DNA of 64,000 nucleotides from Pseudomonadota bacterium (GTDB lineage Bacteria > Pseudomonadota > Alphaproteobacteria > Acetobacterales > Acetobacteraceae), in NCBI GenBank assembly GCA_021809435.1, contig JAKBAD010000001.1:186001-250000 (forward strand), in the 5' to 3' direction. This document shows positions 31,495 through 35,148 of this stretch, in pieces. The notes beneath the pieces are model-generated. The model was not told the DNA's origin. It saw nothing but the letters and a program-made list of their open reading frames with translations, and searched no databases. How positions within the stretch are numbered: the stretch's first letter is position 1; each line of letters begins with the position of its first letter. The position numbers and the translations under genes were made by a program.

Positions 31495-31562
31495 GGGGGC
31501 AGTGTCGCGCATTTGGGGCGGGATGCAAAGCGGGGGCAAAGCCACAAATCGGCATATTTTGG

Positions 31563-31621
31563 CCACATAAACCCACACAAAACCATATTTTTTGTGGGTT
31601 TATGTGGGTTTGTGTGGGTTC
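31563..31621. repeat. Inverted plus tandem TGTGGGTTT repeat upstream of nrtR
   Basis: CCACATAAACCCACA (31563-31577) is the exact inverse of TGTGGGTTTATGTGG (31593-31607), with a 15-base AT-rich loop. The right arm continues as three tandem TGTGGGTTT units (31593, 31603, 31613; the last ends in C instead of T). It sits right after the methyltransferase stop. It could act as a terminator stem, an operator array or an iteron-like cluster. Confidence 0.7.
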
Positions 31622-32375
31622 AGGCGGTGGTGAGCGCGAACAAAACCACATCGAGGTCGAAACTGCCATCCGGGGTGATGGCGAAATGGGTTTTCACCTC
31701 CTCGGGGGCGGTGGCCTGGAGGTGGCGCAGCGCGGCCAGCATGACCTCCGGGGTTTTGGTCCGCGCGGTCCAGACCGGGAATTCCATGCGTAAGTTCCAG
31801 CTCTGGCAGCCGGTGAGGCTGAACCCGGCGCGGGCCAGCTCGGCCACCCATTCCGGCACCGTATGGTTACGGCCATGGGTGGGGTCGCGCAGCAGCTCGA
31901 TGGTTTGGAGGTGGCTATCGAGCCGGGGCAGGGTGGGGGCGGTGGTGTCGATGAACAGGGCGGTGCCGCCGGGTTTGAGCACGCGCCTGGCCTCGCGCAG
32001 GCCGGTGCTCCAGTTGCTCCAATGATGGGCGGAGAAGCGGCAGAGCACGGCATCGAAATGACCGGCCGGAAATGGCAAATCCTCAGCGCTGGCCTGGATG
32101 GTTGTGATGTTTTCAAGCCCGCGGGCGGTTGCCTCGGCCTGCACGGCGGTGAGCATGGGGGCGGTGATGTCGGCGGCGGTGACGCGGGCCACGAGCGGGG
32201 CGGCCGTGTAGGAGACATGACCGCCGCCGCAGCCCAGATCGAGCACCGACCAGCTGGGGTGGGGGCGCAGGGTTTGGGCGATGAAATCGAGATCGGCGCC
32301 GGTGGCGTGGACGGCGCTGGCAACATAGGCCCCGGCGCGGGGGCCGTAATGGGCTTGGGTGTGGGGATCGGACAT
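31620..32375 (-). CDS. Class I SAM-dependent methyltransferase (UbiE/Methyltransf_11 type)
   Basis: A 251-residue small-molecule-type methyltransferase. Motif I is VLDLGCGGGHVSYTAA, motif II VTAADITAPM, then ASAEDLPFPAGHFDAVLCRF and VLKPGGTALFIDTT. A HHWSNWSTGLREARRVL segment lies between. The substrate is unknown. The 3' end abuts the TGTGGGTTT repeats. It is the last normal-composition gene before the AT-rich island. Confidence 0.88.
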   Translation of the reverse strand: MSDPHTQAHYGPRAGAYVASAVHATGADLDFIAQTLRPHPSWSVLDLGCGGGHVSYTAAPLVARVTAADITAPMLTAVQAEATARGLENITTIQASAEDLPFPAGHFDAVLCRFSAHHWSNWSTGLREARRVLKPGGTALFIDTTAPTLPRLDSHLQTIELLRDPTHGRNHTVPEWVAELARAGFSLTGCQSWNLRMEFPVWTARTKTPEVMLAALRHLQATAPEEVKTHFAITPDGSFDLDVVLFALTTA

Positions 32376-32731
32376 GGCGGGCTCCTGTGCCCTTTGATAT
32401 GGCGCGGCGGGTGGGGGGTAAAGGGTGGGGCGTGTTTGTAAAGTTTATCAGGGGGCTGAGGGCTTTGGTTGTTGCGTATATTCTGGGTTATGCGACAATT
32501 GCGCTACGGAGGCTCTGCGCCCATTATCGCCGCTGATCGACCGGTCGGAGCTTCTCCGAAGCGGACATGCGAGGAGAGCGCTACAACGGCTATGATGGGG
32601 GACATTGAGGACAGGGCGCAATGCATGAGCAGCCGTTGAATGGCACAATCGCAACATAATCCCTAAAAAACATGCCATATTTAACACCGAAAGAGACTAC
32701 AACCTAACCCCTGATTGTGCCATTTAAGGCT
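32376..32731. other. Left boundary of the AT-rich island, no clear gene
   Basis: The composition drops from G-rich to AT-rich near 32,440. The first ~200 bases still contain GC-rich scraps (for example GGAGCTTCTCCGAAGCGGACATG at about 32,547-32,569, split by AT-rich DNA) that look like older intergenic sequence. A minus-strand frame at 32448-32687 has no recognisable content. A CATAAT hexamer at 32655-32660 could be part of the island promoter. Confidence 0.5.
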
Positions 32732-34102
32732 ATGGCCATTGTCCGACCACGTCTGACTGAACATTATGGGTTATCTCTCGCTCAAGCGACGGTGCCATTT
32801 GCGATCCCATTCTTGGATGAGGATTTGCCACTCTACGTCGATCCGTTTTTGCTTTGGAAGTCACCGTCACAGCAAGACTATTCATTGCACGCGAGCATGA
32901 TCCAGTCCTTCAACCGCTTGGGCTTAGAAGCTAATAAAGGTAAGTTGGACGAGGTAACGGCATTATTCATCCAAATGTCCGAATGCGATGAGGTCGGACT
33001 AGGATCATCTGCAACGAGAATAGGAAAGCGCATCGGCAAAAATACCGCCGAGCAAATCCTCCAACTTTTTGCTCGCATTCCTCGTTATGCAAGCGGCGGC
33101 ATGGGCCATCTTGAAGAAACGCAGCTATTTATTGACGGTTTATCTAAGGACCGAATCAGTGATTTCACGTGCAATTTTGTGAAGTCGTTTCTGATTGATT
33201 TCACTATCGAAGAATGTGAGCGTGTATGTTTGCCATTGACAGATGTAACCGTTCCAAATGTGTTTGATGCTAGAACACACTCACTTGTTGGCATAAAAAC
33301 AAAACTGCCAGTTCACCCCACAACAGCACGGCCGATAATTTTAGTGCCTAAGAGATGGCTTCGTCTTGCTCCTTGGATCAGTTTCGATGAATACTTTAAA
33401 TCGTACATCCCGAAAGACGAACGTTTCAATGAGGTGGTATGGGACCGGGTAAACCTCCTGTCGTATAACAGAGATAACTGGGGCGCGGTTGAAGAATATG
33501 TAAAACTGAAGGAGCGCACGGCTGCAGATTGCAGTAATGATCCTCTATTCAAGCAAATTCCCCTCATCTCAGCACAACGCAAGCTTGCTGAAATCCAAAA
33601 GCTTCCCAGCGGCAAGAACGACAACGCCGACAAAAAATACGAAGATGCAGTTACCGCACTTCTAGCCAATATGTTTTACCCTCAGCTCGACTTTGCAGAT
33701 ACACAAGTGCGAACTGACAGTGGAGCGCAAATCCGAGACCTGATCTTCTATAACAATAGAGAAGTTGAGTTTCTCAGTGACATCGAGAAACAATTCGAGA
33801 GCCGCCAATTGGTGATGGAACTAAAGAATGTCGCTAAAATTGAGCGCGAACATATCAACCAGTTACATCGATATTTGGGCAACGAATTTGGCCGTTTCGG
33901 TGTGATTGTCACGCGCAACCCATTGCCAAGATCGATACGAAAAAATACTGTTGATCTCTGGTCTGGAAAGCGGGTCGCGATATTGCCAATCACTGACGCT
34001 GATTTAGCTTTGATGGTAGCTTTGTTTGAACAGAAGAAACGACCGCCGTTGGACGTGCTCAAGCGAGCTTATCTTCAGTTCATAAAGGAGTGTCCAGTTT
34101 AA
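32732..34102 (+). CDS. Uncharacterised protein with C-terminal PD-(D/E)XK nuclease signature
   Basis: A 456-residue protein of a family I know only as hypothetical. The N-terminal part opens RPRLTEHYGLSLAQATVPFA followed by IPFLDEDLPLYVDPFLLWKS. The C-terminal third (about residues 300-400) has a helix with E304, then RDLIFYNN with D336, then VMELKNV with E363 and K365, then HINQLHRYLG and FGVIVTRN. This spacing of D...E-x-K is the restriction-endonuclease-like core. It lies in AT-rich DNA with codon use unlike its neighbours. A GTG at 32717 is an alternative start; AAGG precedes the ATG chosen. Its stop overlaps the next gene (TAATG). Confidence 0.8.
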   Translation: MAIVRPRLTEHYGLSLAQATVPFAIPFLDEDLPLYVDPFLLWKSPSQQDYSLHASMIQSFNRLGLEANKGKLDEVTALFIQMSECDEVGLGSSATRIGKRIGKNTAEQILQLFARIPRYASGGMGHLEETQLFIDGLSKDRISDFTCNFVKSFLIDFTIEECERVCLPLTDVTVPNVFDARTHSLVGIKTKLPVHPTTARPIILVPKRWLRLAPWISFDEYFKSYIPKDERFNEVVWDRVNLLSYNRDNWGAVEEYVKLKERTAADCSNDPLFKQIPLISAQRKLAEIQKLPSGKNDNADKKYEDAVTALLANMFYPQLDFADTQVRTDSGAQIRDLIFYNNREVEFLSDIEKQFESRQLVMELKNVAKIEREHINQLHRYLGNEFGRFGVIVTRNPLPRSIRKNTVDLWSGKRVAILPITDADLALMVALFEQKKRPPLDVLKRAYLQFIKECPV

Positions 34103-34473
34103 TGCCAAAGCTGAAAGCCGAGCAAATTGAGGAAGTCCGAACCGTAATAGCAAATCTTGATGGTTTGCAATCTGAGATAACGGCAGCGGTAAAACGTAAA
34201 CCAAACGAGCCAGTCACACCATTTCAACTCAAAATCATTAATGGCGTACTCGAAAGTGCCAATAGACTACTTTCGGGCACGAAGCCGATTTCTGGCTTCG
34301 AGACATTTGATGACGACGAAATTCCAGTCGCAAGTGATGTTGCGATGGTTGTCGCCCAATATGTCGAGGCGTTCGAGAAGGTTCGGTGCGAGAATATCGA
34401 AAAATATGATAGCGGCTGGGTTTGGGTCGCCGCAGATTCGATTTATACTGTACCTCCTCGACCCCGTAAATGA
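34102..34473 (+). CDS. Small acidic helical protein, paralogue of the next gene
   Basis: A 123-residue protein with no family I recognise. Residues 33-57 (KPNEPVTPFQLKIINGVL and on) and 68-93 (FETFDDDEIPVASDV and on) align with residues 35-59 and 68-96 of the following product. Predicted mostly helical and soluble; no signal or membrane segment. The C-terminus (GWVWVAADSIYTVPP) is unlike the paralogue. The start shares an A with the nuclease-like gene's stop; AAGGAG lies at 34085-34090. Probably acts with the nuclease-like protein. Confidence 0.75.
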   Translation: MPKLKAEQIEEVRTVIANLDGLQSEITAAVKRKPNEPVTPFQLKIINGVLESANRLLSGTKPISGFETFDDDEIPVASDVAMVVAQYVEAFEKVRCENIEKYDSGWVWVAADSIYTVPPRPRK

Positions 34474-34485
34474 TGGAGAAAAGCC

Positions 34486-34824
34486 ATGCAAACTAACACA
34501 GTGACTGCCGAACAAGTTAAGCAATATAAACTCTTAGATCCATTGCTCGATTCCCTGTACAGAGAGTTTCAGGAGCTTTCCAAGAAAAAGGCAAGTGAGC
34601 CCGTGAGCAAGAGTAAGGTGAAGATTGTAAACCGTGTTCTAGAACCAATCTTAGCCTTACTCCAAGAAGAGCCTCAACGAGAATTCCTAAACTTGCTTGA
34701 CGATGACGAATTGCCGGAAAACAGCGATGTAATACTGATGCTAGGACAATTCCGTGCCGCAATGAATAGCTTCGAAACAACCTATGGCGGTAGATCGCTA
34801 AACGGTTGGCGACTAGCAAATTAA
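34486..34824 (+). CDS. Small acidic helical protein, paralogue of the previous gene
   Basis: A 112-residue protein. The shared core is KASEPVSKSKVKIVNRVLEP, then FLNLLDDDELPENSDVILML. The N-terminal segment is longer in helix (YKLLDPLLDSLYREFQELS). The gene begins 12 bases after the previous stop, with GGAG upstream, so all three island genes should be one transcript. Tandem duplicated small proteins next to a nuclease suggest adaptor, immunity or regulatory subunits; that is inference only. Confidence 0.75.
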   Translation: MQTNTVTAEQVKQYKLLDPLLDSLYREFQELSKKKASEPVSKSKVKIVNRVLEPILALLQEEPQREFLNLLDDDELPENSDVILMLGQFRAAMNSFETTYGGRSLNGWRLAN

Positions 34825-34854
34825 ATAGAAAATTCAGCATCAATTTAACGGCCA

Positions 34855-35148
34855 ATGACTATCAACAAGTATAACCAGGGCGCTTGGGACATGGATGACA
34901 ATGAATTGTGCTGGTGCGAAAATGGCCGTCTTTATCAAATTGCAGATTGGTGCGATGGTTCAACGAATGTCCAATTTTGCCCTTTGTCATGCCGAAACCG
35001 GACCTTCCGCTTTCGGCCCTTAAGGGGCGCGGGGGTTAGATGGCGATGCGGACGCCGAGTTCGACCACGCGGTCGGCGGGGATTTGGAAGAATTCGGTGG
35101 CGGGAATGGCGTTGCGGGCGAGGTAGAGGAAGAGCCAGCGGCGGATGA
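34855..35148 (+). other. Doubtful ORF at the right edge of the island
   Basis: An open frame of 97 codons. The first ~50 residues (MTINKYNQGAWDMDDNELCW, then CENGRLYQIADWCDG) are encoded by island-type DNA. The rest runs antisense into kup, with arginine-rich shadow sequence. It has no ribosome site. It may be the 5' stump of a gene truncated when the island inserted. Confidence 0.25.

Follow-up and report, generated by a model that had tools for sequence, protein, structure and literature searches.

The three genes M36A, M36B1 and M36B2, which lie on one strand in an AT-rich segment of the window (the whole 64,000-nucleotide stretch of DNA that was analysed), correspond by their profile matches to the candidate system PDC-M36 of PADLOC-DB 2.0.0. 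The cassette is probably a mobile, nuclease-based anti-phage system in which the M36B pair would control the nuclease. The features of the segment are as follows.

32732..34102, plus strand: M36A, 456 aa, by sequence a probable PD-(D/E)XK nuclease, PADLOC PDC-M36A
32732..33526, plus strand: M36A N-terminal domain, approximately residues 1-265, boundary estimated from the elements of the AlphaFold2 (AF2) model
33617..34033, plus strand: putative PD-(D/E)XK core of the M36A C-terminal domain, approximately residues 296-434, containing E304, D336, E363, K365 and Q377
34102..34473, plus strand: M36B1, a 123-aa partner, the ATG of which overlaps the M36A stop codon
34486..34824, plus strand: M36B2, a 112-aa helical partner
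32450..34990, no strand: AT-rich segment with the cassette, probably acquired, ends set by eye
32636..32727, no strand: inverted repeat just 5' of the M36A start, with 15-nt arms at 32636-32650 and 32713-32727

The 456-residue reading frame is present where the initial annotation had placed it. Its start is taken to be the ATG at 32732, the point at which the homologues also begin; an alternative, longer frame from a GTG at 32717 exists. The tight operon with two small proteins that had been described is likewise found, M36B1 starting at 34102 over the stop codon and M36B2 at 34486. None of 60 shuffles gave an inverted repeat as good as that at 32636-32727. Such a repeat is not common to the relatives, since only 3 of 25 upstream regions, the window included, beat all 60 shuffles. 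The repeat is possibly an operator or the trace of an insertion.

All three proteins match models of the PADLOC collection. M36A matches PDLC04597 with an E value of 3.5e-214, residues 1-455 being aligned to positions 1-456 of the 457 of the profile. M36B1 matches PDLC04599 (E 1.1e-33) and M36B2 matches PDLC04600 (E 1e-40), and each of the two matches the other M36B model as well. The full-length match to the M36A profile, with two M36B genes directly downstream, agrees with the composition of PDC-M36 (M36A + M36B). The family had earlier been called hypothetical only, which does not hold, since all three proteins match this catalogued candidate.

General protein family collections contribute little to the identification. 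No protein of the cassette has an above-cut-off match in Pfam or NCBIfam. Below the cut-off, PDDEXK_3 is found on M36A (Pfam, E 0.0064), and GxxExxY is also sub-threshold. The N-terminal domain of M36A has no Pfam match up to E 1. M36A has matches over parts of its length to three PHROGs of unknown function, and phage records gave no match at E 1e-5. Sequence searches of the PDB, with the protein and with three profiles, returned weak matches only, which are taken as chance. Pfam matches of the M36B proteins to phiKZ_IP and to the SWAP70 EF-hand were rejected as sub-threshold. No paper on PDC-M36 was found under that name, preprints and supplements lying outside the search; variant spellings brought up unrelated papers among the 10 listed of 43 matches, and the term PDC is not met in the available part of the PADLOC paper (PMC9252829). 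According to the accessible portions of PMC12988326 and PMC10855318, 'guilt-by-embedding' was the basis on which the PDC systems were put forward, and most of those discussed still await validation. Two other PADLOC candidates, PDC-M63AB and PDC-S04, gave no defence in the native host, as reported in the available part of PMC12409345.

Several searches contributed to the set of relatives with which the cassette was compared. Scanning 84,980 species genomes yielded 28 loci, 20 of which are distinct and have an intact M36A. These 20, together with two plasmid copies, one alphaproteobacterial genome and two viral contigs, are the 25 relatives that, with the window, make up the comparison set of 26 loci with an intact close M36A. 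A third near-full-length plasmid match, in a second strain of Leptolyngbya boryana, stands outside the 26 loci. One locus, L018, was dropped from the alignments and trees as a repeat of L017: the two have identical M36 match statistics on contigs equal in length and range, one from a Thermodesulfobacteriota and the other from a Saprospiraceae metagenome-assembled genome (MAG), and are probably one contig binned twice.

The order M36A-M36B1-M36B2 on one strand is found in all 26 loci. The M36B1 frame is whole in 25 of them. In the exception, L004, the stretch is open but lacks a start codon near its beginning; its M36B1 may therefore be broken, and L004 was left out of the M36B1 structure alignment. 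In the tree of the M36B proteins, M36B1 and M36B2 form two clades of 26 rows, each with support 100/100, and comparison of the two profiles gives a probability of 99.8% and an E value of 8.5e-29. The two clades and the match between the profiles argue that the pairing is the product of an old duplication.

The residues proposed for the nuclease centre do not vary in this set. E304, D336, E363, K365, H374 and Q377 are present in all 26 close proteins, including that of the window, and the motif E304, D336, E363-x-K365 thus stands at the positions that had been claimed for it. A superfamily alignment of 23 rows, consisting of 7 close and 16 distant proteins, retains D336, E363, K365 and Q377 in every row. 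Free variation of D336, E363 and K365 among homologues, which the initial annotation had named as evidence against its reading, was not seen in the 26 close or the 16 distant proteins. E304 is present in 20 of the 23 rows (13 of the 16 distant ones) and is replaced by H in the other three, all of them distant.

The N-terminal domain has an invariant set of its own. D31, P38, E84, G91, G98, D140, S143, D144 and P206 are identical in 23/23 rows of the superfamily alignment, D37 in 22 and K207 in 20. Nineteen columns are conserved in at least 21 of the 23 rows, and 13 of these precede residue 265. One of the two N-terminal stretches singled out earlier as conserved, PFLDEDLPLYVDP, carries D31 and P38 and stands; the other, TEHYGLSL, is variable even among close relatives.

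The AF2 model of M36A, calculated from an alignment of 21 sequences, has a mean pLDDT of 80.3 and a pTM of 0.77, with pLDDT below 50 at residues 92-94, 268-278 and 322-335. The C-terminal domain is predicted to contain helices at 296-315, with E304, and at 372-381, with Q377, and strands at 337-340 (following D336), 359-364 (with E363) and 389-393. An order of helices and strands of this kind fits a PD-(D/E)XK core, and the predicted topology is in this sense PD-(D/E)XK-like. Foldseek comparison of the model with the PDB gave no match at E 0.001 or better. The best rows are mostly RPB5, with a best E value of 0.02 and query TM scores below 0.25, and the first 50 rows also hold Nt.BspD6I, MspJI, EcoT38I, FokI and Cap4. 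A viral library returned the same kind of rows at E 0.045 or worse. RPB5 is non-catalytic and has an N-terminal domain with a restriction-endonuclease-like fold. The Foldseek rows may be read as a weak agreement in kind with the restriction-endonuclease fold rather than as proof of it. The PD-(D/E)XK core that had been proposed for M36A is thus supported by the conserved motif and consistent with the order of the AF2 elements, whereas the matches to solved structures are weak (E 0.02 or worse). The AF2 model does not contradict the fold, a structure lacking which had been named as a ground for giving up the proposal.

The model of M36B2 (pLDDT 92.9) is a helical bundle. Its top eight Foldseek rows in the PDB are all Bpa, the mycobacterial proteasome activator, with probabilities of 0.96-1.00, query TM scores of 0.53-0.58 and E values of 0.04-0.20. 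In its model M36B2 is a helical bundle, as is Bpa, which has a four-helix-bundle fold; the two share 10-14% identity, and with such E values and identity the likeness may be a chance similarity of helical bundles. None of 41 aligned M36B proteins has a C-terminal GQYL tail, the motif by which Bpa docks to the proteasome according to the accessible text of PMC11953334. The resemblance may be taken as a lead about the shape of M36B only.

The nuclease is more widely distributed than its partners. Among 398 genomes sampled from the phylum, 19 contain matches to the M36A profile; a close, full-length M36A is found in two of these 19, the genome of the window and G693, the rest of the matches being distant or partial. 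The M36B model matches in 2 of the 398 genomes, with two copies in each, and these are the same two that have the close, full-length M36A. In a set of 14 named control genomes the M36A profile matches in one, that of Synechococcus elongatus, and the M36B model in none. The 16 distant relatives that were aligned have both domains in approximately 480-565 residues and are 17-24% identical to the M36A of the window. No M36B match at E 1 or better was found near the distant matches (L032-L041 and L047-L064) in flanks of up to approximately 1.5 kb, some of the records being of one place and some being cut by a contig end. The superfamily alignment leaves out L048, which has an internal TGA, duplicates from the same place, and partial or C-terminal-only matches such as L033, L036, L057, L058, L062 and L063; in L057, a frame of 663 aa, the match to M36A is confined to the C-terminal end. 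One distant relative, L039, lies directly 3' of a gene read as a phage terminase. Since the distant nucleases seem to have no M36B nearby, we think that M36B is a controller specific to one branch rather than a general antitoxin.

The distribution of the close copies points to horizontal transfer, because members of different phyla fall together in the M36A tree. A Limnohabitans copy pairs with that of a Chitinophagaceae genome, and the copies of two MAGs, one from Myxococcota and one from Chlorobiaceae (Chlorobiota), make up another pair, both with support 100/100; some rows of the tree are MAG contigs, the host of which may be misassigned. Copies of M36A are also found on plasmids and viral contigs. 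The M36A and M36B1 of the window are on long branches in their trees, and the window copy may for this reason have diverged in function. Three pairs of loci were used for dN/dS; of the nine gene comparisons, seven gave a value, with ratios of 0.05-0.18, the other two being saturated at silent sites and that of M36B1 between L016 and L021 (dS 2.1) nearly so. Upstream of position 582 in L021, 5' of M36A, there is a strong 21-nt inverted repeat with TTATCCGTGTATAAACGTTTA arms, which resembles an integron attC site.

Not all copies are intact. Internal stop codons interrupt the matched stretch of L022 (8001-9295), L023 (213-1479) and L028, the last of which is partial too. Partial matches are found in L024, L025, L026 and L029. 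The copies seen as broken or truncated are those of L022, L023, L025, L026, L028, L029 and L044. Because several copies are in this state, loss of the cassette may be common.

The segment at 32450-34990 has a GC content of 0.461, against 0.657 in the remaining window, and the two lowest of the 64 1-kb bins of the window are those covering 33001-35000. GC3 of the cassette genes is 0.43-0.48, against 0.71-0.88 in five neighbouring ORFs. The foreign look ascribed earlier to this DNA is supported by these values. A close M36A is present in one of 38 genomes of the genus, that of the window itself, and the segment was therefore probably acquired. Imperfect 17-nt direct repeats (82%) lie near its two ends, at 32388-32404 and 34978-34994, and could be an insertion trace or chance. 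An empty insertion site was not shown, as kup and the methyltransferase gene that flank the segment were not found side by side in the genus relatives looked at.

The surroundings of the segment are ordinary. By reading of the translations, one flank carries nadA, nadB and the genes of a NUDIX protein and a small methyltransferase, and the other carries kup and MCE-type genes; in all, the translations of 42 flanking ORFs of the window were read as housekeeping. PADLOC matches among the 42 are to mad3 and mad2 (two ORFs each) and to mad8 and AriA (one each). The mad3 model also matches 3 of 82 control ORFs, and we take these mad and AriA models to be generic. A local defence island around the cassette of the window was accordingly rejected. 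Two further observations concern the same region. At approximately 31 kb, the cumulative-skew minimum of the window, the GC skew turns from negative to positive in the manner of a replication origin; DnaA boxes show no enrichment, 5 matches to the consensus being found against 4.5 expected when one mismatch is allowed. Between the NUDIX and methyltransferase genes there is a very stable hairpin (31555-31625, RNA fold of -33 kcal/mol, z -6.1), perhaps a terminator or a repeat element.

Several of the relatives have neighbours of the defence type. Around 24 loci, 215 neighbour ORFs were called; 134 of these, lying within 3.8 kb, were selected, and 133 were scanned, a 1735-aa ORF of L011 being left out. 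For the control, 19 stretches of the same genomes were asked for, 17 were obtained, and the 16 that had ORFs gave 82. At E 1e-10, the 133 neighbour ORFs matched 224 PADLOC models and the 82 control ORFs matched 5, a ratio that overstates the effect because models are counted and these are redundant for methyltransferases. Apart from mad3, the matches of the control, one each, are REase_II (E 6.6e-116), ZorB, SduA and PDC-M60B. One of the control stretches, L070 1-7000 from the Marinobacter genome, contains a run of 13 small ORFs on the same strand, which by eye resemble integron cassettes.

Seventeen neighbours from 14 loci, chosen by eye, were named singly, ten with PADLOC and ten with Pfam, three of them with both. 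Six of the ten named with PADLOC have defence-type matches: L014 adjoins a type III methyltransferase, L019 a type II methyltransferase, L066 a type II restriction enzyme together with a weak PglW match, and L008 NsnA/PD-T4-2_A, and in L065 an Mrr-like protein is found 3.5 kb away on the other strand. With Pfam, a KwaB-like gene of Kiwa was identified in Nitrosovibrio tenuis (L006 6916-7869, E 1.1e-36) approximately 130 bp 5' of the cassette, and a NACHT protein approximately 1 kb 3' of it in L015. The remaining Pfam-named neighbours include the mobile-element marks of a phage integrase (L010) and a relaxase (L012) and three ordinary enzymes, namely a nitrogenase component, a 5'-nucleotidase and a tRNA methyltransferase; three of the ten gave no match. 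A defence-type neighbour is thus found in 7 of the 26 loci, 14 having been looked at in this way, which is not an unbiased rate because the named neighbours were chosen by eye. The defence-like setting that had been suggested for the nuclease is therefore seen in these relatives but not in the window, where the 42 flanking ORFs read as housekeeping. On a Falsihalocynthiibacter plasmid, a truncated copy of M36A directly follows a PaeR7I restriction-modification pair. On the viral contig of L066 (3319-10117), the M36 cassette shares its direction with two genes read as C5 methyltransferases, a type II REase-like gene and a NERD-like gene, and an apparent integrative element lies alongside.

We propose that the C-terminal domain of M36A would cut nucleic acid, most likely DNA, by means of D336, E363 and K365 assisted by E304 and Q377. 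The N-terminal domain would recognise the trigger or the substrate and restrain the nuclease. M36B1 and M36B2 would be bound to M36A in a hetero-oligomer, by which the host would be kept safe and cutting would be licensed on infection, with protection from the phage as the presumed outcome.

In another reading the cassette is an addiction module, in which M36A would be a toxic nuclease and M36B1 and M36B2 its antitoxins, selected mainly for the stability of a plasmid or island. Small partner genes at tight or overlapping spacing behind a nuclease gene agree with such a module, as do the copies on plasmids and viral contigs and the broken or truncated copies of L022, L023, L025, L026, L028 and L029. 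The partners, however, are two in number, obligatory and anciently diverged, which is unusual for a simple antitoxin. The nuclease gene comes first in the cassette, whereas the antitoxin gene is first in many toxin-antitoxin modules, and the distant relatives have no M36B in the flanks examined, which suggests that the nuclease by itself is not necessarily lethal. For these reasons an addiction module appears unlikely. The patchy presence of the cassette (1 of 38 genus genomes) and the several loci that adjoin restriction-modification, Kiwa, NACHT or Mrr-like genes argue in turn against a role in the repair, replication or competition of mobile elements, such as end processing or the exclusion of rival plasmids, to which the defence genes would be incidental. 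In favour of such a role, relaxase, integrase, UmuDC or Mob genes lie near the cassette on the plasmids and elements that carry it, and several neighbours are not defence genes; we hold it to be quite unlikely.

The division of labour between the two domains could also be the reverse of that proposed, the C-terminal domain binding and D31, D37, E84, D140, S143 and D144 of the N-terminal domain forming the true catalytic centre. This polar set is conserved as well as the nuclease motif, and the top Foldseek rows include RPB5, which is non-catalytic, but the presence of D336, E363, K365 and Q377 in 23/23 rows is hard to explain without catalysis, and we consider the reversed arrangement very improbable. 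A more far-reaching proposal, which we put forward only tentatively and would not expect to hold in full, is that a broad, uncharacterised superfamily of two-domain nucleases has in its N-terminal domain a new sensor or enzyme, the same six residues forming a conserved acidic/serine site, and that in its PDC-M36 branch the nuclease is under a helical M36B1/M36B2 controller, perhaps a ring like that of Bpa, which would sense a phage protein and then set the nuclease free. To our knowledge, control by a helical ring of two paralogues is the principle of no described defence nuclease.

The reading of M36A as a nuclease of an anti-phage system under M36B control, which we prefer, invites comparison with known systems. 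M36A shares its motif layout with Mrr and PDDEXK_3 proteins, D...E-x-K and then a conserved Q in the helix that comes after. Neither the long N-terminal domain nor an M36B pair is known to us from those families. No Mrr_cat match was found in the M36A of the window (Pfam, up to E 1); the distant relative L049 has one at E 0.0011, below the curated cut-off. Shedu (SduA), like M36A, has an N-terminal domain ahead of a PD-(D/E)XK nuclease. In EcSduA, as described in the accessible part of PMC12904381, the clamp that grips DNA ends is N-terminal, and the nicks of the nuclease domain fall at a fixed distance. By analogy, the N-terminal domain of M36A may recognise its trigger or substrate as this clamp does. 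Shedu, however, is a single-gene system, whereas M36A has two partner genes in 26/26 loci. SduA and DUF4263 have no match in M36A up to E 1 (Pfam and PADLOC), and a short, weak SduA match (E 2.9e-4) is found in the distant relative L047. As the SduA/DUF4263 and Mrr_cat profiles fail to match, M36A is placed outside both groups; its mode of action is most likely that of a defence nuclease of the Shedu or Mrr type, but it is a member of neither. Classical restriction-modification was rejected because the cassette is without a methyltransferase (M36B1 and M36B2 have no such match up to E 1), and in some relatives a separate restriction-modification system lies beside the cassette.

Within PDC-M36, the models of which are matched by all three proteins, the copy in the window stands on a long branch. 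Three traits are described here: the invariable order A-B1-B2, a wider superfamily of two-domain proteins, and the conserved site of the N-terminal domain. With them, PDC-M36 becomes a concrete object of three genes, with named putative catalytic residues, a second conserved site and two constant paralogous partners, and the wider family without M36B nearby gives a comparison for it. If PDC-M36 does defend, it would add a defence nuclease whose cassette includes no ATPase, methyltransferase or nucleotide-messenger gene, and one more 'hypothetical' gene set moving between phyla would be explained.
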